Shown piece by piece: positions 3,170 to 62,157 of a stretch of 64,000 bases of DNA. The stretch's first letter is position 1. Each line of letters opens with the position of its first letter. The position numbers and the translations under genes were made by a program. Origin of the DNA: Latrodectus hesperus (taxonomy: Eukaryota; Arthropoda; Arachnida; Araneae; Theridiidae); contig CM075855.1 of the NCBI GenBank assembly GCA_037975125.1, positions 85,607,215 to 85,671,214 on the forward strand, given 5' to 3'. The notes beneath the pieces were generated by a model. The model was not told where the DNA came from, made no database searches, and was given only the letters and a program-made list of their open reading frames with translations.

Positions 3170-4872
3170 TCTTCCTAACTTAAAATAAAAGCTATTGTTA
3201 CTATTGCACCTGTACCTAGCCTAGAGTCGGGCATTGCCAGTTAATGAAAGCACCTAGATATCATTTCACTTGAAGGACATTGCAACCATGAGCTATTGAG
3301 CCTTCCTAACTTAAAATAAAAGCTATTGTTACTATTGCACCTGTACCTAGCCTAGAGTCGGGCATTGCCAGTTAATGAAAGCACCTAGATATCATTTCAC
3401 TTGAAGGACATTGCAACCATGAGCTATTGAGCCTTCCAAACTTAAAATAAAAGCTATTGTTACTATTGCACCTGTACCTAGCCTAGAGTCGGGCATTGCC
3501 AGTTAATGAAAGCACCTAGATATCATTTCACTTGAAGGACATTGCAACCATGAGCTATTGAGCCTTCCTAACTTAAAATAAAAGCTATTGTTACTATTGC
3601 ACCTGTACCTAGCCTAGAGTCGGGCATTGCCAGTTAATGAAAGCACCTAGATATCATTTCACTTGAAGGACATTGCAACCATGAGCTATTGAGCCTTCCT
3701 AACTTAAAATAAAAGCTATTGTTACTATTGCACCTGTACCTAGCCTAGAGTCGTGCATTGCCAGTTAATGAAAGCACCTAGATATCATTTCACTTGAAGG
3801 ACATTGCAACCAGGAGCTATTGAGCCTTCCTAACTTAAAATAAAAGCTATTGTTACTATTGCACCCGTACCTAACCTAGAGTCGGGCAATGCCAGTTAAA
3901 GAAAGCACCTAGATATCATTTCACTTGAAGGACATTGCAACCATGAGCTATTGAGCCTTCCTAACTTAAAATAAAAGCTATTGTTACTATTGCACCCGTA
4001 CCTAGCCTAGAGTCGGGCAATGCCAGTTAATGAAAGCACCTAGATATCATTTCACTTGAAGGACATTGCAACCAGGAGCTATTGAGCCTTCCTAACTTAA
4101 AATAAAAGCTATTGTTACTATTGCACCCGTACCTAACCTAGAGTCGGGCATTGCCAGTTAATGAAAGCACCTAGATATCATTTCACTTGAAGGACATTGC
4201 AACCATGAGCTATTGAGCCTTCCTAACTTAAAATAAAAGCTATTGTTACTATTGCACCCGTACCTAACCTAGAGTCGGGCATTGCCAGTTAATGAAAGCA
4301 CCTAGATATCATTTCACTTGAAGGACATTGCAACCAGGAGCTATTGAGCCTTCCTAACTTAAAATAAAAGCTATTGTTACTATTGCACCCGTACCTAGCC
4401 TAGAGTCGTGCATTGCCAGTTAATGAAAGCACCTAGATATCATTTCACTTGAAGGACATTGCAACCAGGAGCTATTGAGCCTTCCTAACTTAAAATAAAA
4501 GCTATTGTTACTATTGCACCCGTACCTAACCTAGAGTCGGGCAATGCCAGTTAAAGAAAGCACCTAGATATCATTTCACTTGAAGGACATTGCAACCATG
4601 AGCTATTGAGCCTTCCTAACTTAAAATAAAAGCTATTGTTACTATTGCACCCGTACCTAGCCTAGAGTCGGGCAATGCCAGTTAATGAAAGCACCTAGAT
4701 ATCATTTCACTTGAAGGACATTGCAACCATGAGCTATTGAGCCTTCCTAACTTAAAATAAAAGCTATTGTTACTATTGCACCTGTACCTAGCCTAGAGTC
4801 GGGCATTGCCAGTTAATGAAAGCACCTAGATATCATTTCACTTGAAGGACATTGCAACCATGAGCTATTGAG
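3170..4872. repeat. 131-bp satellite, 13 tandem units
   Basis: Unit starts (CCTTCCTAACTTAAAATAAA) lie at 3170, 3301, 3432, 3563, 3694, 3825, 3956, 4087, 4218, 4349, 4480, 4611 and 4742, exactly 131 bp apart. Units differ by only a few substitutions. Recurrent variants are CCTGTACC/CCCGTACC, CTAGCC/CTAACC, GGGCATT/GGGCAAT/GTGCATT, TTAATG/TTAAAG and CATGAGC/CAGGAGC. No long open frame crosses it. The variant pattern repeats every five units in the second half (see findings). Confidence 0.97.
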
Positions 4873-4876
4873 CATG

Positions 4877-18342: not shown

Positions 18343-18857
18343 GATTTGGTTTGTTTGCGCTCAAAGATCTTTATTTCACACGAAGGCTAATTAGATCAGA
18401 GACTAACAGTTTAAAGTGGATTTCGAGTTATTACAAACATCCAATCCGATGAGGGATTCGAACCTACAAACTGTTGAACGGAAGGCAGAAACCATTCGTC
18501 TACCAGCTCGGCTTGGTTGGTTTGTTATTCATCGGCCAGTTTTTGCATACTAGGACTAATTAGATAGGGACCTACAGTTTAAAGTGGATTCCAAAACATT
18601 ACTAACATTGAAGCTCGAGTTGGGATTCGAACTCGAGAACTGTTGAAACAATGGCAATAGCAGAAACCATTCGGCTACCAGTTCGGTTTGGTTTGTTTGT
18701 CATTCATCTGCCATTTTTTGCATACTAGGGCTAATTAGACAGTGACCTACAGTTTTAAAAGAATTTCGAAACACTAGAGCATACAAAATCGAGGTAAGAA
18801 TCAAATTCACAGTTGAACCAAAGATCAGAGTGTCAACTATTCGGCTGCCCGCTCGGC
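18343..18857 (-). mobile_element. three head-to-tail SINE family 1 copies
   Basis: Complete units, each with tail, body and tRNA head, lie at about 18,343-18,512, 18,513-18,685 and 18,686-18,857. B-box cores decay along the series: GGTTCGAATCC is intact or nearly so in the first two, and the third is badly mutated. Unlike the block at 0.75-1.47 kb, the tail (GGTTTGTTTG...) is retained in every unit, so this array arose differently, perhaps by repeated insertion or as a preformed trimer. Confidence 0.85.
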
Positions 18858-20785
18858 AACTAACACACCAGAGGTCCCTTGCAAGTGGGATTAAAAACTA
18901 TGAGGTACATATACGAATACTTCTGAAGATGTACATTAAAACTACAACTAAAAAGTATTATATTGCCTCTGTATGATATAGTAAAAGGAAACCAAATGGT
19001 GAGAATAAAAATTTGGAAGATTCACTGGTTCAGAAATATTTGTCCTAATATTTGTGCAATAAGAAAAAATTATAAAATTTCTTTACAGATCTATGTAGTC
19101 GATCTGATTTATCGACAAAGAAGTAAATATGTTCTGAAAACCAAATTTGCCGAAATGGGATACATAGAATTACAAATAGATTACAATTTGCAACCAACTT
19201 TTTAAGTAATATTTTGGAGGAAATTGAGCTTCTAAATTAGGAAAGTGCCTTTCTTAAATAGAATGTCAAATTGTAAGAGAAATACAATGAGGAAAGAAAA
19301 AATTTTTTCAATTTTTACTTACTAAATAAATGCAATGTTCGAAGAATTTAAAAAATAAGTTTTTTACATTTAAATATTGCTACACACTTCATTTAGAATT
19401 ACTTTGCATTATTAACATTTTGAGTGATATTCATGTTGTTGTCATTAGACTCATTGCCAAATATTCTACTAAAGCGGCAAAAGTTTCATATAAAGTCGCC
19501 ATTCTGCTTCGAGAGTAGCTTTTCATCAAAGTTAATTTCACTGGAATCTTTATCATGAATATGAATATCCTAAATATTTTCTCGCGATTATTCTTACGCT
19601 CTGAATTCTTCACCAAATTTCAAATAGGGAGGATTTGGCGACATTTGAATCCGGGCCCTGTTAATAGAAAATTACCGCAATTTGTGCCTTCGAAAAATAA
19701 AATTCTTAATTATTCGCAATTATAGTTGATTTTAGATATTATGTGAACGCACTTCTAATAACTTATTCGCACTCATTCAACTAAAATTGAAAATTAATCT
19801 CACTAAAAATGACGAATGTATAGATAACATTATCCGATAATTCAAAACACATTCCACAAGGAAAAGAAAAATGGCGAGGAATTTGTTTCATTACGCCAAA
19901 CCCAATCGCACGAATTTCTGGCAAGTCAGCAAACCTCTCGCTCTTTAGCCTTCTCGATTCAACAGAACGCCAAACGAGAAATTAAAGATAATCGGATTGT
20001 TTTCCTTTATCTCAAGCTTTTATTCGCATGCCAAAATGGAATAAATACCAGAGGCTTTTACACTTCTGAGCAAACAAACGGCTCGTTTGTCGGGAAACCT
20101 TCACTGCCACTCTCCCGCTTGGACAGATATTTGGTATGGCCAGAGCCATCTCACGCTGGTTCCTGGGGTTACCGGTACAAGACACAGTAAACAACTCGCC
20201 GATACCCTTGAAGCCAATTCGCGTACTCCACAACTCCTTTGTTTATTTTTTTATTCCCACAGCCAATTGTTGGGACGCTTTCTCGGAATTGTTACGGTGA
20301 CTTCTTTTGTTCGATGTATCCTTGTCCACATTCTACTGTCAATACTCATGTCATCGAGAGAGAAGGAAAATGATACCGATGGTCATAAAACTGATGTTAA
20401 TCAATTAAAACGTTCGAAATTCAATAGCAATTTTATTTTTAATAAGGTATTGTTTCATGAGGATAAGAAACATAAAAAAGCTGAATAATACCATCTGCTT
20501 TTATCATTAAAAGTATTATTTTAAACTGAAGTAATTTATAAAATTGCCTATTACAACAATGTAATCAAATTCTCAAAGACAGAATGCAAAACATCGTTAA
20601 AAAATTACTTTGAATGTAAAATTAGAAGTAAATGCTAACTGTAAAATAAATAAAATATTTTTTAAGAAGATTACAGTTTTAATTATGAAGAATTAATATT
20701 ATCAAATATATTTAAAAGCATTTTTGTGGTACAATGGTTAGCGTTTCATTTTCTTAACAGGTGGTAAAAGTTAACTTATGGTACA
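18858..20785. other. no gene recognised; GC-richer patch at 19.86-20.35 kb
   Basis: Contains an open frame of 133 codons at 20,087-20,488 (plus). No domain, no signal peptide I would trust, and an opposing 73-codon frame overlaps it. I do not call it a gene. Confidence 0.4.
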
Positions 20786-40692: not shown

Positions 40693-40908
40693 AAAACTGA
40701 GTTTTGGTTTGTCGGTTTGTTTATCGCTCAACGGTCATTTTTTGCACACGAGGGCTAATTAGACCGGGACCCTTAGCGGACGGCTTAAAGTGGATTCCGA
40801 ACCACTACAAACATCCATGCCCAAGATGGGATTCGAACCCACGAACTTTTGAACCGAAGGCAAGAGCGCTAACCATTCAGCTACCAGCTCGGCAAAACTG
40901 AGTTTTGG
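40693..40908 (-). mobile_element. SINE family 1, full length, perfect 15-bp TSD
   Basis: AAAACTGAGTTTTGG flanks the element at 40,693-40,707 and 40,894-40,908. Read on the minus strand: tRNA head with A box and GGGTTCGAATCCC B box, body, and a tail ending in CAAA repeats. An 8-10-bp insertion (CTTAGCGGAC) interrupts the body. The perfect TSD makes it one of the younger copies. Confidence 0.92.
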
Positions 40909-41425: not shown

Positions 41426-41653
41426 AAAAAAAACTAAGATTGGTTTGTTTGGTTTGTTTGTCGCTCAACGGTCATTTTTTGCACACGAGGGCTAATTAGA
41501 CCGGGACTTACGGCTTAAAGTGGATTCCGAACCACTACAAACATCCATGCCCATGGTGGGATTCGAACCCACGAACTGTTGAACCGAAGGCAAGAGCGCT
41601 AACCATTCGGCTGCCAGCTCGGCAAAAAAAAAAAAAAAAAAAAAAAACTAAGA
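41426..41653 (-). mobile_element. SINE family 1, full length, TSD and A-run
   Basis: The target duplication is AAAAAAAACTAAGA (41,426-41,439 and about 41,640-41,653). The SINE itself is 41,440-41,623. The A-run of about 24 nt beyond the head is on the tRNA side of the element, so it belongs to the target or TSD and is not the SINE tail. Boxes are intact. Confidence 0.9.
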
Positions 41654-44372: not shown

Positions 44373-44548
44373 GGTTTGGTTTATTTGTCGCGCAAACATT
44401 TTTCCCACACGAGAGCTAATTAGACCAAAATTAGCTGTTTAAAGTAGATTTCAACCACTACAAACAACCAAACCCAAGATGGGATTCGAACCCACGAACT
44501 GTTGAACCGAAGGAAAGGACGATAACCCTTCGGCTATCAGCTCAGCGC
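44373..44548 (-). mobile_element. SINE family 1, moderately diverged
   Basis: Tail, body and head all present, with an intact B box (GGGTTCGAATCCC on the minus strand). It ends 9 bp before the Tigger-like element begins. Confidence 0.85.
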
Positions 44549-44575
44549 ACTGGATGATACAGTGGGTGATCGGTG

Positions 44576-44787
44576 AATGAACAGTTCGGTTGGTTGGTTG
44601 GTTTGTTTGTCGCTCAACGGTCATTTTTTGCACACGAGGGCTAATTAGACCAGGACTTACGGTTTAAAGTGGATTCCGAACCACTACAAACATCCATGCC
44701 CAAGGTGGGATTCGAACCCACGAAATGTTGAACCGAAGGCAAGAGCGCTAACCATTCGGCTGACCAGCTCGGCAATGAACAGTTCGG
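44576..44787 (-). mobile_element. SINE family 1 nested in the Tigger-like element
   Basis: AATGAACAGTTCGG flanks it perfectly at 44,576-44,589 and 44,774-44,787, so it inserted after the DNA transposon did. The internal Pol III boxes are intact apart from one extra base in the head (GGCTGACCAGC). Confidence 0.92.
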
Positions 44788-53623: not shown

Positions 53624-54037
53624 TTATCTCAAAAATAGTTTTTATTTTGAAAAGGCAATATTTTCAAAAATATCATATGTACATGAAGGATGTTCGAAAA
53701 GAATCACTAACTCACCAAGAGTTTCTACACCCATTACAAATGTACTATTGGTGACACGACGTTATCTCAAAAATAGTTTTCATTTTGAAAAGGCAATATT
53801 TTCAAAAATATCATATGTACATGAAAGATGTTCGAAAAGAATCACTAACTCACCAAGAGTTTCTACACCCATTACAAATGTACTATTGGTGACACGACGT
53901 TATCTCAAAAATAGTTTTCATTTTGAAAAGGCAATATTTTCAAAAATATCATATGTACATGAAGGATGTTCGAAAAGAATCACTAACTCACCAAGAGTTT
54001 CTACACCCATTACAAATGTACTATTGGTGACACGAAA
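53624..54037. repeat. 138-bp tandem triplication over an exon end
   Basis: Near-identical units start at 53,624, 53,762 and 53,900 (TTATCTCAAAAATAGTTTT). Because 138 is a multiple of three, frames stay open across the array on the plus strand. That explains the 190-codon plus-strand frame, which I regard as spurious. Only a few substitutions separate the units, so the duplication is recent. Confidence 0.92.
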
Positions 54038-55076: not shown

Positions 55077-55518
55077 TTGATATTGACTGCCACTGTTCAA
55101 CACGAACTTTTGTCAAGATCAAGCAGAGATGGTAGTTTAAAAAATCATTGTTGTTGCATACCATCAGTTGTTCTTAGTGGGTTTGATCAGTTGATATTGG
55201 ACATACATGTTGCCTGTGGTTTAGAATCCATGTTAAACATCAAATCTTTGTCAAATTGGCTCTTTTGTGCAAAAGGCAATCATAGAGCAACAAATAAATC
55301 AAATTAATGCACAGCTGTAACCCAGACAGTGAAAATCGTTATTACTCTTACAGTTGGAAACTAGACAAGTTTGCTCTAACAAATTCAACAAATAATGAAC
55401 ATTCATGTTTCAGTAGTATGCGTGCATTAAAGTTTATTATTAAAGAAATGTATGCGAATGCAAAATATTTAAAAATTCACGAGAACATAAAATCGCTTAT
55501 TGATTATTTACAGTATCT
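55077..55518 (+). other. unrecognised open frames split by the retroelement
   Basis: A 76-codon frame (55,077-55,307) overlaps a second frame starting at 55,307 (TAATG junction). The second frame is still open when it reaches the element boundary at 55,518. In the empty site it would continue from 62,158 to a stop at 62,330-62,332, giving 128 codons in all. I recognise no domain. The two frames could be one frameshifted pseudogene exon or chance. Between 54,691 and 55,076 nothing is seen. Confidence 0.3.
55513..55518. repeat. target-site duplication GTATCT, left copy
   Basis: GTATCT directly precedes the left end (TGTAATG...) and recurs at 62,152-62,157 directly after the right end (...CATTACA). 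A 6-bp duplication is within the range made by retroviral-type integrases. If the ends were placed one base further in, an 8-bp duplication (AGTATCTT) would result. I prefer 6 bp because it leaves canonical TG...CA termini. Confidence 0.8.
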
Positions 55519-55748
55519 TGTAATGTCTCACCATCGGCACTTTCGATTTTAAGATCCTATGTTTTTTTTTTTTTGTTTTGTTTTGATTTTCAGAGAGACT
55601 CTCATTGTACGCGAAGCAGGCGAGAGAGATTGTCGCGAACCCATACATGGCTCCTTGTAAATTTTGTTCATTTTTTAATTAAATGTGTATGTTTCAAAAT
55701 TGGAGTCATTTATTTGTTTGTTTGTTTCATAACAAACTTATGTTTTTG
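55519..55748 (+). repeat. left terminal repeat, 230 bp
   Basis: Begins TGTAATGTCTCACCATCGGC and ends TAACAAACTTATGTTTTTG. By eye it is identical, including a T13 run, to the reverse complement of 61,922-62,151. The next-door base pairs (55,518 and 62,152; 55,749 and 61,921) do not match, which fixes the limits. No direct-orientation second copy is present in the window. Confidence 0.95.
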
Positions 55749-55766
55749 GTGGCAGCGGTTTGATGC
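55747..55766 (+). promoter_or_regulatory. putative tRNA primer-binding site
   Basis: TGGTGGCAGCGGTTTGATGC starts with the TGG expected opposite a tRNA CCA end and sits right at the inner edge of the left terminal repeat, overlapping its last two bases. I cannot name the tRNA. If real, it implies minus-strand DNA synthesis is primed as in LTR retrotransposons. Confidence 0.45.
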
Positions 55767-55956
55767 TTTTTTAATGCTTTGCATTAGCATCCATTATGGA
55801 AATTAATTATGTGCACTATATTGGATTACGTGCCGCAATGTTGGAATACAGGTAGGCCATTTTGATCAATCTTTCTCTGGCTACTATTGAAAATAAATAG
55901 TTTGGAATGTTATAGAAATTTATAGAATATTTAGTTCCAATGTTATTTACGTGATT

Positions 55957-56153
55957 TTCATGTTATATCAGTTAATTTTGTTTATAAGTTTGTAAATGGT
56001 GTATTCCATATTACAAAGCTAATTTCTGTATTTCGTGTATTCGAATTTACAGTGTTCATGCTATATCAATTAATTTTGCTTATAAGTTTGTAAATGGTGT
56101 ATTCCATATTACAAAAGCTAATTTCTGTATTTCGTGTATTCGAATTTACAGTG
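55957..56153 (+). repeat. 98-bp tandem duplication in the leader
   Basis: Units at 55,957-56,054 and 56,055-56,153 (TTCATGTTATATCAGTTAAT vs TTCATGCTATATCAATTAAT at their starts; both contain GTATTCCATATTACAAA). The pair lies about 1 kb upstream of the gag start. The leader as a whole (55,749-57,111) is T/G-rich on this strand with few C and no long open frame. A promoter or enhancer role is possible but unproven. Confidence 0.85.
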
Positions 56154-57111
56154 TAATATTTTTTATAAGAAAAGTGTATCTTATTATAAATTTGCATTTC
56201 ATAATTTTTATGTGGTTGATGTATTTCAATTCACGTAGGAATATGTTAAAATAACTATGTTGTTATAGATTAATGTGTAAAATCGAAAGTACACTTAAAT
56301 TCATAATTTTTTGAATGTTTCACTGAAAGTAGATTTTATGAAAGTAATATATACTTTAGAAAGGTTTTGATTTCGTTATGTGAAAACGAAAGTACATGAT
56401 TACAAATAGGTTTGAATTTAAAGTAATGTGAGATTTATTGATGTGTTTTTGATTTTTGTTTGCAAAGTATCAAACTGGTTTATTTCATATTTAGAAACGC
56501 ATATGTTTATTTTCATTGATAAAGATTTGAAAAGATATTTTCTTACTGTTTAAAATATCGTACGTTATTATCATTTTTATGTCGTGTATGATTAACTAAC
56601 TAAGTTTATTGATTTGAAATCGAAAGCTGATTTCTGGTTTAGATTAGTTAAAGCTTTTAATTTATATTGTTGTTAAGAATTGTAGTGTTTTATATTTTGA
56701 ATTAAATAAGGATTCAAAAATATGTATAATTTCATTTTCTGATTTAATATAGTAGTATTTGTATAAGAATCTGATTTTATAAAATTTATACATTTTTGAT
56801 TAATAATTCAATTTATCTGAGTATCAAGTATTAGCTTGGTGATAAAAAAAACTTGAAATCGAGAGTAGAAGATTTAATATTAAACTTGTTCTTCTTTTCA
56901 AAATATATGATTTGCTGTTTATACACTATTTGTTGTATTACAATATAGTTTGTTTTCGTTTAAATTTTTAAATGTTATGGATATGTTTTATATTAGTAGA
57001 GTGTGTTAAATAATTTCAATAGTTATTTACGAAATTTTGTATATAGGTGGGTGTAGTCTGTTTTTCCTCTCATTATTGCATCTCTTCTGAGATAAAGCGT
57101 TAATAAATAAA

Positions 57112-60100
57112 ATGGCTTTTTTAGCACGGGGGAAAAAGGGAGATTTAGTAGAAGTAGCTGAAGAGTTAGGGGAAATGGTTCCAGATTCTTTTAAAATCCC
57201 AGATATTAAAAAATTAATTTTAACTAGTAAAAACTTTAATGAGGAAGAAGTAAAATGTATATTAGATAGGGTAATCGAGGAAAGAGTTAAAAGGGAACAG
57301 GAAGAAAAAGAGGAAAGAATTAGGCGAGAAGAAAAAGAAGAAAGAATTAGACGTGAAGAAAGAGAACATATTTTGGAAATGAAACGTCTGGAAATCTCTT
57401 CAAATGCTGCAATTTCGAACACAGAATCAGTTACAAATAGGACTGAACATGCTCAAAAAATTCAATTAATGCAAATAACGCCAAAATTCGATGAAAGGAA
57501 AGATGAGATGAGTTTATACTTAATAAATTTTGAGCGTAGAGCAGAAATGGCTCATATTCCAAAAAACGAATGGGTAGTTTATCTTGTAAGTGCTTTACCT
57601 TCAGAGATATCTAACATGTTAGCTAGAGAACCTCCAGAAAGGGCTGATGATTACGATTACGTGAAGGAAATTATTCTTAAACGATTCAAGTTAAATAGCG
57701 AAAAATTAAGACAATTGTTTCTTAGACACCAGAAAACGTCAGACAAATCATGGAGAAATTATGCACAAGAATTGAATAGTTACTTTACGGAATGGCTTAC
57801 GGAATTAGAAATAACGACATTTGAACAGCTTAAGGAACTAATGGTAACAGATCAATTGAAACGTCGTGTGCCAATTGAAATTAAGGAACATTTTTTGGCG
57901 GAATGGCTTAAAATAAATTCGCCGTATGATCTGGCAGAGAAAATAGATGAATATGAAAGTTTAAGAGATAGTTTTAAGACGAAAGATTTTACAAAACTCC
58001 CTCGAAATAATTTTGGTTTTCGTCAACAAAATGAAAACCGTGCCTTTAAGTTTAATGAAGTAGTTCGGAATCATAAATCTCATGTTCCTAAAAGAGTCGA
58101 GAATAAAAATTCTAATTATTCACATGAAAAGGAATTCGAAAAAAGAAAACAACTCCGATGTTATGAATGTGGTTCTTATAGTCATTTGCGGCCTCAGTGT
58201 GACAAAATAAAAAAGAACTTAGAATCGGTAGCATCCAACGAAATTGCTAGAAGTACATTTAATGAGTTGATGGCTCCTTACACTAGTATCGGCACTGTTA
58301 ATGGAATTCAAATGCCAATCTTAAGAGACACTGGAGCAACTCTTGATTTGATTTGTGGAAAATACGTGAAACCTGATATGTTCACGAAGGAAAAGGTTTG
58401 GCTAAGAACACCTCTTGATGAAACTTTAGTATGCTTACCTATTGCCGAGGTTGAAATAAATTGTGAATTAGGTCACATTTTGACAAAGGCAGCAGTTCTT
58501 CGAGATTCTTTGGATCAAGGAAGATATTTACTGGGAAACAAAACAGCCGCTTTATTTGAGGAAATTAAAAAGCATGAGGAGGTGAAAATACATATGATAA
58601 ATGCTATAGAAACTCGAGCTCAAAAAAGACGGAAGGAAAATAGCACGAATAAAGAGATTATTGATTCTGAAATAGAATCTTCTAGGTCTTGCTTCCTAAC
58701 TAAACAAAATGAAGAATTAGAGCAAAATACAATTTTGCCACCATTAGAAACCGAAGTTGAAGGGATGGATTTGATAAAAACATCTCCAGAAGAATTTGCT
58801 CGGGAACAAAAGGTGTGCGAAGATTTGAAACCTCTCTTTGAGCAAGCTAAACGACAATCTTCAAAAGACAATAAATATATTATAATAAATCAATTGTTGT
58901 TTTATAATAAAATGGACAATGATGGAACTGTAAGAAGATTATTAGTTGTGCCCAAGAAGTTTCGCAACCAACTAAAAGGGATCTGCCATGAAATAACTGC
59001 AGCTCATTTAGGTATAACTAAAACAAAAGATATGCTGTGCAAAACTTTCTACTGGCCTAACTGCTTTAAAGAAATTGAAAATTTTGTTAAATCTTGTGAC
59101 AAATGTCAACGAGTAGGAAAGCCTCAAGATAAGAAAAGGGCTCCTTTGAAACTGGTTCCAGTAATTCCGAAAATATTTACGAGAATTAACGTTGATGCAT
59201 GTGGTCCTTTACCTATAACTTCCTGTGGTAACCGGTATATTATAACAGCCATTTGCATGTCATCCAAGTATCCAGATGCCATCCCAGTACCAGATATACG
59301 TTCTACTACTGTGATTGATGCTTTTCTTCAGATATTTAGCCGCATGGGTTTTCCTAGGGAGTTGCAAAGTGATCAAGGAACATCTTTCATGAGTGTCCTA
59401 ACATCAGAATTTTTAGAAAAATTTGGTATTAAAGTTGTGCATAGTTCCGTTCAGCATCCCCAAAGCAATCCTGTTGAGAGATTGCATAGAACTTTAAAGA
59501 GAATACTGAAAGTCCTTTGCTTAGAAAAAGGTACAGATTGGGAGAAGATTTTACCTCAGGCACTTTTTGCTCTTAGAACTTGCATTCTTGATAGCACTGA
59601 ATATTCTCCTGCAGAATTAGTCCATGATCGGAACTTAAGAACACCCGTAACACTATTATATGAAAATCTAACTGGTAAAACCATTGAAGAAGATAGTGTG
59701 ATTGCTTACGTTTTTAATCTTTTAAATAGAATGAAAAGATGCCAAGAATTAGCTGTGAAAAATATGACAGAGGCTAAAGAAAAACAGAAACTTTGGTATG
59801 ACCGTAAGGCTACGAAAAGAGAATTTAAAGAAAATGCTCTTGTGTTAGTTGTTGCACCTTCTAGATCAAACAAATTTTCTGTTCATTTGATAGGTCCAGG
59901 AAAAGTAGTAAAACGACTATCGGACACAAATTACGTAATACAATTTCCCGATAAGGAAAAATTACATGTATACCATGTAAATATGTTAAAACCTTATTTT
60001 CAGCGTCCAGAGGATGTTAATTTAATTTTTACCTCTAATTCTGATAATGAAGATATTGATTCTGAGAAAGAAGATATCCCAAGTTTTGAAATTAATTCAT

Positions 60101-60387
60101 CTACCCTTTTAGAGACTTTTCCTGAAAGCTGTTTTAATGAAAAGTTAGAGGACGATCAGAAGAAACAATTGAGTAGACTTTTGATTCAATTTATTGATAT
60201 TTTTTCAAATGAACCAGGTTGTACAGAACTGGCTGAACTTGACATCGAATTAGAATCTAATAAACCTATTATAGCTAAACCATATCGAATGTCCCCACGA
60301 CAGACAGGAATTCTGAAATCGGAAGTAGACAAGATGTTGAAATTGAAGGTGGTGGAACCAGGGAATCCGATTACACATCACCTTTAA
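57112..60387 (+). CDS. Gag-protease-integrase and N-terminal RT polyprotein, frameshifted
   Basis: 1091 codons from an ATG in a good context (AAATAAAATGG). Gag: an acidic N-terminal segment and a charged coiled coil (residues 50-92, RREE/KEER repeats), then a retrotransposon capsid-like region (about 120-290). Zinc knuckle CX2CX4HX4C at C350, C353, H358, C363. Aspartic protease motif DTGA at 406-409. Integrase: zinc-binding HHCC (H626, H632, C662, C665), then the catalytic triad D695, D754, E789, with the last two 35 apart. A C-terminal GPY/F-like module follows (about 920-965, IGPG...VYHVNMLKPYF). The reverse transcriptase begins at about 1040 (KPIIAKPYRMSPRQ) and is cut off when the frame runs into TAA. 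Integrase preceding RT is the unusual point. The break is one base: homology resumes in the next frame at about 60,363. No classical slippery heptamer precedes it, so mutation or a base-call error in the GGG run is likelier than programmed frameshifting. Confidence 0.93.
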   Translation: MAFLARGKKGDLVEVAEELGEMVPDSFKIPDIKKLILTSKNFNEEEVKCILDRVIEERVKREQEEKEERIRREEKEERIRREEREHILEMKRLEISSNAAISNTESVTNRTEHAQKIQLMQITPKFDERKDEMSLYLINFERRAEMAHIPKNEWVVYLVSALPSEISNMLAREPPERADDYDYVKEIILKRFKLNSEKLRQLFLRHQKTSDKSWRNYAQELNSYFTEWLTELEITTFEQLKELMVTDQLKRRVPIEIKEHFLAEWLKINSPYDLAEKIDEYESLRDSFKTKDFTKLPRNNFGFRQQNENRAFKFNEVVRNHKSHVPKRVENKNSNYSHEKEFEKRKQLRCYECGSYSHLRPQCDKIKKNLESVASNEIARSTFNELMAPYTSIGTVNGIQMPILRDTGATLDLICGKYVKPDMFTKEKVWLRTPLDETLVCLPIAEVEINCELGHILTKAAVLRDSLDQGRYLLGNKTAALFEEIKKHEEVKIHMINAIETRAQKRRKENSTNKEIIDSEIESSRSCFLTKQNEELEQNTILPPLETEVEGMDLIKTSPEEFAREQKVCEDLKPLFEQAKRQSSKDNKYIIINQLLFYNKMDNDGTVRRLLVVPKKFRNQLKGICHEITAAHLGITKTKDMLCKTFYWPNCFKEIENFVKSCDKCQRVGKPQDKKRAPLKLVPVIPKIFTRINVDACGPLPITSCGNRYIITAICMSSKYPDAIPVPDIRSTTVIDAFLQIFSRMGFPRELQSDQGTSFMSVLTSEFLEKFGIKVVHSSVQHPQSNPVERLHRTLKRILKVLCLEKGTDWEKILPQALFALRTCILDSTEYSPAELVHDRNLRTPVTLLYENLTGKTIEEDSVIAYVFNLLNRMKRCQELAVKNMTEAKEKQKLWYDRKATKREFKENALVLVVAPSRSNKFSVHLIGPGKVVKRLSDTNYVIQFPDKEKLHVYHVNMLKPYFQRPEDVNLIFTSNSDNEDIDSEKEDIPSFEINSSTLLETFPESCFNEKLEDDQKKQLSRLLIQFIDIFSNEPGCTELAELDIELESNKPIIAKPYRMSPRQTGILKSEVDKMLKLKVVEPGNPITHHL

Positions 60388-61541
60388 TATTAGTTGAAGC
60401 TCCTGGAAAAGAACCTCGTCCGTGCATTGATTATCGCAGGTTAAATGAGGTTACCAGGACGCAATATTATCCATTACCAAATATTGAAGAGCGTGTTGAA
60501 TCCGTTTCGAAAGCGAAGTTCATATCTTTATTAGACTTAACACGAGGTTATTGGCAGATACCTTTGAGTCCTAAGGCTCAAAGATATGCTGCATTTACGA
60601 CGACATTTGGTGTTTATAAACCTTTGAGAATGGCATTCGGTTTGAAGAATGCTCCTTACTATTTCAGTAAGTTAATGGCTGATTTATTAAAAAATTGCGA
60701 ACATTTTGCTGTGCCTTATTTAGATGACATAGCTATATATTCACTTACCTGGTCTGATCACATCCAACATCTTAAATGTGTTCTGGAGAAGATTCGATTT
60801 GCGAAATTGACTGTAAAACCCCTTAAGTGCAAATTCGCTCAACTTCGTGTTAAATATTTGGGACACTTTGTAGGACAAGGTCAAAGAACACCAGGTGATA
60901 TTAAAGTGAAAGCCATTACCGATTTCGAACGTCCTTCAAGCAAAACCGAAGTACGAGCTTTCCTAGGTCTTGTTGGGTACTATCGCAAGTATATACCAGA
61001 ATTTTCGGTAGTTGCTGCGCCTTTATCCGACCTGTTAAAAGGGAAGTCCAAGAAAGGAACTGTAATATGGAATAATAACTGCGAAAAGGCATTCATAGAA
61101 TTAAAGAACACTTTAATAAAGAAGCCTGTACTTTACAGTCCAGACTTTCAAAAACAATTTATCATTCAATGTGATGCCTCCAACTTAGGAATAGGTGTAG
61201 TTTTATCTCAGAGAGATCAAAATGAAAATGAACACCCTATCCTATTTCTGAGTAAAAAATTTTCAAAATCTGAGAAAAATTATAGCACTATAGAAAAGGA
61301 ATGTGCAGCAATAATTTTTGCTGTTACTAAATTAAAATATTATTTAGATGGTCAGTATAAATTTATTATCGAAACTGATCATAACCCTTTAGTTTGGTTA
61401 AAACATCATACAGGATCTAATCCCAGACTTTTAAGGTGGGCTTTGGTACTTCAAAGCCTAAATTTTGATATTGTTCACAGAAAGGGCAAATTACATCAGA
61501 ATGCCGATAGTCTCAGTAGAATGCTGAATAACCAAACTTAA
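60363..61541 (+). CDS. reverse transcriptase and RNase H, continuation after the frameshift
   Basis: This frame is open from the break to TAA at 61,539-61,541; the first ATG in it is at 60,564, inside the RT domain, so it is not an independent gene start. RT fingers and palm: PRPCIDYRRLN near 60,420, first catalytic Asp in SLLDLTRGYW (codon 60,534-60,536), FGLKNAPYYFSKLM, then YLDD at 60,717-60,728 carrying the two other catalytic Asp. The connection has VKYLGH and RAFLGLVGYYRKYIP. RNase H shows its acidic residues in CDAS, the STIEKE segment, ETDHNP and NADSLSR, so it looks catalytically complete. Frame differs from the upstream gag-pol frame by one base. AATAAA at 61,617-61,622 could serve as a polyadenylation signal. 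Confidence 0.92.
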   Translation, partial: ESDYTSPLILVEAPGKEPRPCIDYRRLNEVTRTQYYPLPNIEERVESVSKAKFISLLDLTRGYWQIPLSPKAQRYAAFTTTFGVYKPLRMAFGLKNAPYYFSKLMADLLKNCEHFAVPYLDDIAIYSLTWSDHIQHLKCVLEKIRFAKLTVKPLKCKFAQLRVKYLGHFVGQGQRTPGDIKVKAITDFERPSSKTEVRAFLGLVGYYRKYIPEFSVVAAPLSDLLKGKSKKGTVIWNNNCEKAFIELKNTLIKKPVLYSPDFQKQFIIQCDASNLGIGVVLSQRDQNENEHPILFLSKKFSKSEKNYSTIEKECAAIIFAVTKLKYYLDGQYKFIIETDHNPLVWLKHHTGSNPRLLRWALVLQSLNFDIVHRKGKLHQNADSLSRMLNNQT

Positions 61542-61898
61542 TTTTTTCTTTTTCTCAGATATTCAATTAAAATGTTTTTTTTAATACAAATTTCAATTGT
61601 TGTTACATGTGTACATAATAAAAAAAATGTTTTTTATAGTAAAAATGTGTCTATTTGCAAGTTTAGTTAAGGTTGAAAATTCTGTTGTGTTAGATAATTA
61701 TTTTGTGCTATTTTGATATATTTTTATTTTATATTTAATATTATATAATTCCATATAATTTTGTGTTTCAGCCAGAGTCCGATTGATCAGGGCTATCTGT
61801 AATACTAAATTTTGCTCTTTGTTGTTTGTGTGTGTTTTTTTTCTTTTTTATTTGCAGGTTGATTTCCTTAGAATGAGAAAAAGAGAAAAAAAAACTCC

Positions 61899-61911
61899 GG
61901 GGAAGGAAGGA
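61899..61911 (+). promoter_or_regulatory. putative polypurine tract
   Basis: GGGGAAGGAAGGA, preceded by AAAAAGAGAAAAAAAAACTCC, is the kind of tract that primes plus-strand DNA just upstream of a 3' LTR. Here about ten bases (AATAATTTAGT) separate it from the right terminal repeat, and that repeat is inverted, so its function in this copy is uncertain. Confidence 0.5.
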
Positions 61912-61921
61912 ATAATTTAGT

Positions 61922-62151
61922 CAAAAACATAAGTTTGTTATGAAACAAACAAACAAATAAATGACTCCAATTTTGAAACATACACATTTAATTAAAAAAT
62001 GAACAAAATTTACAAGGAGCCATGTATGGGTTCGCGACAATCTCTCTCGCCTGCTTCGCGTACAATGAGAGTCTCTCTGAAAATCAAAACAAAACAAAAA
62101 AAAAAAAACATAGGATCTTAAAATCGAAAGTGCCGATGGTGAGACATTACA
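61922..62151 (-). repeat. right terminal repeat, 230 bp, inverted
   Basis: Reverse complement of 55,519-55,748 with no difference seen by eye. In a normal LTR element this copy would be in direct orientation; here both outer edges of the element are the same repeat edge (TGTAATG). Confidence 0.95.
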
Positions 62152-62157
62152 GTATCT
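62152..62157. repeat. target-site duplication GTATCT, right copy
   Basis: Matches 55,513-55,518. Confidence 0.8.

Follow-up and report, generated by a model that had tools for sequence, protein, structure and literature searches.

A gypsy-type retrotransposon of Latrodectus hesperus with one long terminal repeat reversed, probably before integration

Introduction

A retrotransposon with inverted long terminal repeats (LTRs) cannot make the first of the strand transfers on which standard reverse transcription depends. The window analysed here, a stretch of 64,000 nucleotides from Latrodectus hesperus (assembly GCA_037975125.1, contig CM075855.1), holds a gag-pol element bounded by inverted terminal repeats. 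How did such an element come to have these ends, and was it inserted with them? An earlier note on this DNA had offered two answers, a single aberrant product or assembly error on the one hand, and a gypsy-derived family whose members move with their ends inverted on the other.

Results and discussion

The ends of the element (positions 55519–55748 and 61922–62151) are 230-bp inverted repeats, 100% reverse complements of each other, flanking a gag, protease (PR), integrase (INT), reverse transcriptase (RT) and RNase H (RH) cassette. The identity and orientation of the ends described in the earlier note were thus confirmed, as were its TG...CA termini, which read TGTAATG...CATTACA at the outer edges. 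Neither the element nor the window as a whole yielded a second direct LTR. A search for TGTNR gave a single inner LTR edge within the arm, at 55734, which places the LTR proper at 55519–55734 (216 bp, plus strand, TGTAATG...CATAACA), with predicted edges matching those of the 5′ and 3′ LTRs of direct copies. The remainder of the arm consists of a 12-nt spacer (55735–55746, plus strand) and the start of a putative tRNA primer-binding site (PBS), TGGTGGCAGCGGT (55747–55759, plus strand), which we take to be complementary to tRNA-Leu(AAG). The 5′ leader contains a tandem duplication of 98/99 bp (55957–56154, plus strand); the number of these units varies among copies, with two in the window and in most copies, one in three and three in one (L031, L041, L048, L042).

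At the right end, a purine run, GGGGAAGGAAGGAA (61899–61912, plus strand), is a putative polypurine tract (PPT), and TAATTTAGTC, which follows it on the plus strand up to 61922, corresponds to the normal internal 3′ end of direct copies. The internal region is intact to its last C at 61922, which is also the innermost base of the right arm. Beyond it, comparison with direct copies and with other reversed ends identified 1 nt of the PBS and the 12-nt spacer (61923–61935, minus strand), followed by the reverse complement of the left LTR (61936–62151, 216 bp, minus strand) with its U3 edge (CATTACA) outward, so that the reversed unit measures 229 bp. Immediately outside the element lies a 6-bp direct repeat, GTATCT (55513–55518 and 62152–62157); a 6-mer match of the flanks has a chance probability of 5.4e-4 at the composition of the window.

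A first frame (57091–60387, plus strand) contains a SCAN-like Gag with a CCHC knuckle, the DTGA motif of a protease, and an integrase (H2C2, rve and C-terminal domain); reverse transcriptase (YLDD) with RNase H, 3′ of the integrase, lies in a second (60279–61541, plus strand). The pol frame is broken once in this copy, at the boundary of the two frames (about 60.28–60.39 kb). In 11/11 relatives compared, the two frames correspond to stretches of a single protein that adjoin or overlap slightly, which indicates that a frameshift at their boundary has broken the window copy. Of the two closest relatives, P0001 is 55% identical over the first frame and 72% over the second, and P0002 59% and 71%. 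All protein matches with a named organism come from spiders, mostly Trichonephila clavipes, except two from metagenome-assembled 'archaea' (best 120 of 299); the latter (P0009, P0102) are spider-type Gag-Pol proteins filed under archaeal metagenome-assembled genomes (Nitrososphaeraceae and the Asgard group), probably through contamination. By themselves these matches would make a spider the probable host. Protein queries found no relatives in the genome-contig and viral-contig collections, and the PBS pattern had no match in the viral-contig collection.

An integrase upstream of the reverse transcriptase is the order given for Gmr1 in the consulted parts of two reports (PMC8220671, PMC2582038), and part of a third derives SCAN from a Gmr1-like Gag (PMC3424704). 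The window element resembles Gmr1-like Ty3/gypsy elements in this order. The SCAN-like match in its Gag is weak (E 5.4e-5, 23.3 bits against a Pfam cut-off of 27 bits), and the suggested likeness rests on the domain order and this sub-threshold match. It differs from them in the reversed right LTR, found in this copy and in four others. With Ginger1 and Ginger2, for which a gypsy-like integrase, TGTNR ends, inverted terminal repeats and a 4-bp target-site duplication (TSD) are described (PMC2836005, in part), the window element has the integrase type, the TGTNR ends and the inverted termini in common, and two of the reversed copies also have a 4-bp TSD. However, Ginger elements, in the portion of that report cited here, have a transposase without gag, RT and RNase H, whereas in the spider family the LTRs are direct and gag-pol is full, with RT and RNase H; the target duplication of Ginger1 is CCGG or CCGT/ACGG, compared with GTATCT in the window and GTCT and ATCC at two other loci. 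DIRS-1 has inverted LTRs around gag and RT-RH genes, as does the window element, but it is described as using a tyrosine recombinase and circular intermediates (PMC5633606, in part), unlike the DDE integrase and duplicated target seen here. Pfam scans of the two pol frames, the long sense coding regions of the element, gave no match to a tyrosine recombinase (at E 0.001), to a protein-primed DNA polymerase B or to capsid genes. Judged by the domains found, the element is therefore not a Ginger, DIRS or Polinton. In the open-licence literature searched, we recognised no report of inverted LTRs in an LTR element of the integrase type.

The host assembly (1.64 Gb, 2912 contigs) was then searched with the 230-bp arm, giving at least 40 matches (40 of 1066 candidates scored). 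Two of these are the window's own, and no other pair lies less than 10 kb apart. We fetched 20 of the other 38 at 9.5–9.9 kb, and 20/20 had direct LTRs; of eight further 3′ ends read in 551-bp stretches, six showed the direct junction and two missed the end, while ten of the 38 lay outside the fetched set. Spacer and PBS come directly after the arm in 29/30 short loci read around its matches; the one that departs from this pattern is the right arm of the window. A second query, made of 142 nt of the internal 3′ end and 119 nt of the flipped arm (40 of 1126 candidates scored), matched across the flipped junction at five loci; the other 35 were direct, with the LTR on the other strand just downstream. 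After removal of eight loci seen twice, 58 distinct 3′ ends had been read, of which 53 are direct and five flipped, a ratio that does not amount to a frequency because the second query favours flips. The window copy itself lacks direct LTRs. The idea of a family that moves with inverted ends was rejected on these 53/58 direct junctions. As for the tabulation of repeat orientation and TSDs across the genome that the earlier note had proposed, most of the 3′ ends read turned out to be direct, five being flipped, and most direct copies read at both ends have a 4-bp TSD.

The direct copies define the norm from which the window copy departs. Spacer and PBS are the same in 20/20 of those fetched, and the spacer adjoins the 5′ LTR, not the integrated 3′ LTR. 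The internal region ends in ...GGGGAAGGAAGGAATAATTTAGTC before the 3′ LTR in 19/20 (the last base is T in L050), and two copies have odd 3′ LTRs, that of L038 beginning TGAAATG and that of L032 being truncated. An exact 4-bp TSD was present in 24/26 direct copies read at both ends (19/20 fetched copies, with none in L032, and 5/6 further direct ends, with none in L055). The two LTRs of a direct copy are 0–3 substitutions apart, which makes the family a young one, and a frame of at least 1483 codons is kept in 8/20 copies.

Some internal variants were seen among the direct copies. L043 and L048, on different contigs, have the same internal deletion, from the end of the ORF1 region to the RT, together with direct LTRs and 4-bp TSDs, and so seem to be a deletion derivative mobilised in trans. 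In the ORF1 region, 67–74 additional bases mark five copies (L035, L036, L046, L047 and L050) as a subfamily, and L043 and L049 seem longer there as well.

The five flipped junctions matched the query at 100% in the window (C6), 99% at C8:42059319, 97% at C983:49078, 98% at C581:97465 and 91% at C2:61165467. An exact pattern search with a gap of 0–12 returned the same five loci; the pattern read backwards gives six matches, so a pattern count alone is no proof, and the proof lies in the long alignments. In 5/5 flips the reversed unit comprises the LTR, the 12-nt spacer and one nucleotide of the PBS, starting at spacer plus 1 nt. The internal side ends exactly at the LTR edge in three (GTC|AAAAAC in the window, C8 and C2, where the junction C can be assigned to either side), one base short of it in C581 (GT|AAAAAC) and after five extra bases in C983 (GTC+TGGTT+AAAAAC). 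Flanks and LTR variants differ among the five loci. Outside their two U3 ends, the C8 and C2 flips have the 4-bp TSDs GTCT and ATCC, respectively. The C983 flip lies in an AT repeat, where a flanking duplication of any even length tested fits, and the C581 TSD is not readable because the contig ends within the arm.

Within a flip, the two arms are alike in the way that paired LTRs are. Part of the left LTR could be read in the C8, C983 and C2 flips: the two C8 arms have one difference in 149 bases compared, those of C983 are the same except for a T tract and a single 2-bp gap, and those of C2 differ more. For C581 the expected left LTR was not found, other sequence standing at the expected place. 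There (L065, C581:91185–91305) we read by eye what looks like a LINE endonuclease, which suggests that this copy is truncated or rearranged.

Could these junctions be artefacts of assembly? The flips are known from assembled sequence, two of them lie on small contigs (C983, 70 kb; C581, 98 kb), and the C581 contig ends inside the arm. However, at the window, C8 and C2 a U3 end meets non-repetitive flank at each outer junction and the duplications match, the loci have different junctions and LTR variants, and the spacer in the flipped arm could not have come from a misplaced 3′ LTR of the element itself. We consider an assembly artefact most unlikely. Of the one-off aberrant product or assembly error suggested in the earlier note, the aberrant nature is part of our preferred explanation, while uniqueness was rejected, the flip occurring at five loci with different flanks and three kinds of junction.

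The same loci bear on whether the flips form a self-propagating lineage of gypsy-derived elements moving with inverted ends. Such a lineage would account for five loci, three of them with the same inner junction, and for canonical 4-bp TSDs at two. Against it stand the three kinds of inner junction, the 53 direct ends, the strand-transfer block imposed by inverted LTRs, and the LTR distances: in a comparison confined to the LTRs, four of the five flipped ones are no farther from a direct copy than from another flip. The nearest or joint-nearest neighbour is a direct copy for the window (0 substitutions), C8 (2), C983 (1) and C581 (1), while the C581 and C983 LTRs are 2 substitutions from each other and the C2 LTR is at least 9 from everything compared. 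We regard this lineage as very improbable.

The spacer, present beside the flipped LTR and absent beside an integrated 3′ LTR, indicates that the event most likely preceded integration. It also led us to reject an in-place inversion of the 3′ LTR, the spacer adjoining only the 5′ LTR in 20/20 direct copies. A change after integration could instead have replaced the 3′ LTR of a normal insertion, through replication or repair, by an inverted copy of the 5′ LTR and spacer. The original TSD would then be kept, and the LTR edges are near-inverted repeats of each other (TGTAATG versus TGTTATG) and the window flanks have a longer word, TTACAGTATCTT, in common, as this would favour. Yet copying would need to end at spacer plus 1 nt at 5/5 loci, and the piece would need to land at the outer edge with the C8 and C2 TSDs undisturbed, and the chance of a random inner breakpoint no more than 2 nt from the PBS start is about 0.0036 over the leader; we find this reading very improbable. 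The view that the window element was inserted in its flipped form gains from the C8 and C2 TSDs and from the spacer inside the flipped arm, while its own 6-bp repeat, which the earlier note had taken as a clean TSD, weighs less. That repeat is present, but the rule of the family is 4 bp.

Our preferred explanation is a flip before integration. We think it likely that the window element was inserted recently and in aberrant form, and that it belongs to an otherwise ordinary Ty3/gypsy retrotransposon with direct LTRs and a Gmr1-like order, and equally that the family recurrently forms aberrant cDNAs with U3 at both ends that its integrase still inserts. In the cDNA, the unit at the right-hand end (LTR, 12-nt spacer and one PBS nucleotide) would have been attached in reverse to the internal region, at its LTR edge. 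The flipped cDNA would then have had U3 at either end, with both ends open to integrase, and could so be inserted. The reversed unit is bounded by two landmarks of reverse transcription, at one side the U3 edge and at the other the end that the tRNA primer leaves. In HIV-1 the linear cDNA ends one nucleotide into the PBS, where RNase H leaves the terminal A of the tRNA; the same behaviour here would give spacer plus 1.

The route by which the flip formed, end-joining or a template switch, is one we infer. The favoured one would be a break at the inner U3 edge, followed by wrong-way end-joining of the released LTR unit; the break could combine the plus-strand nick left by PPT priming with an integrase cut 3′ of CA on the other strand. 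Template switching, also named in the earlier note, stays live as a sub-mechanism. The plus strand, having reached the LTR edge, would jump to the 3′ end of the plus-sense LTR strand and copy it to the U3 start. Such a jump would account for the two landmarks with no cut needed, and would explain the slight variation of the junctions, the five extra bases of C983 among it, as slippage or untemplated addition. However, plus-strand strong-stop DNA should carry the PBS up to about 18 nt, and 5/5 flips carry only one PBS nucleotide. We hold this switch to be possible but somewhat doubtful, its probability overlapping with that of the flip before integration, of which it is a sub-route. Self-integration, the other source named in the earlier note, was rejected: integrase would join at the CA edge, and the inner joint lies at spacer plus 1 nt.

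Several observations weigh against the flip before integration. The repeat flanking the window copy is 6 bp, not 4; it would reflect a mis-spaced integration or else, given two additional nucleotides at the right end, a 4-bp TSD (ATCT). Three of the five flips have the same inner junction, as a replicating lineage would also give; the window and C8 flips have an LTR variant near the middle in common; the LTR distances listed above are small for C581 and C983 (2 between them against 1 to direct copies) and leave C2 remote from all; and the C581 copy is incomplete.

If this explanation is true, an LTR retrotransposon repeatedly yields cDNA with two inverted U3 ends that still integrates with TSDs, and concerted integration in this family needs no more than a pair of U3 ends. 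It would also provide a one-step route from LTRs to terminal inverted repeats, a change that Bao et al., in the part of their report cited here, could only propose as the LTRs of two elements incidentally flanking an integrase (PMC2836005). The flip thus hints at how LTR elements could become cut-and-paste DNA transposons. Because a flip places identical U3 integrase sites at the two ends of a gag-pol element, as terminal inverted repeats, some flipped copies might be moved as DNA by their own integrase or that of direct copies, as a living intermediate between gypsy retrotransposons and Ginger-type transposons, which we consider very unlikely. As a retrotransposon, each flipped copy is probably a dead end, being barred from the first strand transfer. 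Opposed LTR promoters around gag-pol could yield double-stranded RNA; DIRS-1 is described as producing sense and antisense transcripts (PMC5633606, in part).

Other repeats in the window

The window contains several further repeats. Five copies of a 134-bp unit with a tRNA-like stretch, recognised by eye, occupy 798–1470, and related units of about 175 bp are dispersed near 18345–18865, 40705–40893, 41440–41625 and 44373–44775; together they are perhaps a SINE turned satellite. Rfam and ARAGORN found nothing in the window. A satellite with a 131-bp unit fills 3171–4873 with 13 copies that are 98% alike. At 53624–54035, a 138-bp unit repeated three times contains a mechanical open reading frame of 190 codons, the frame staying open through the repeat because 138 is divisible by three.
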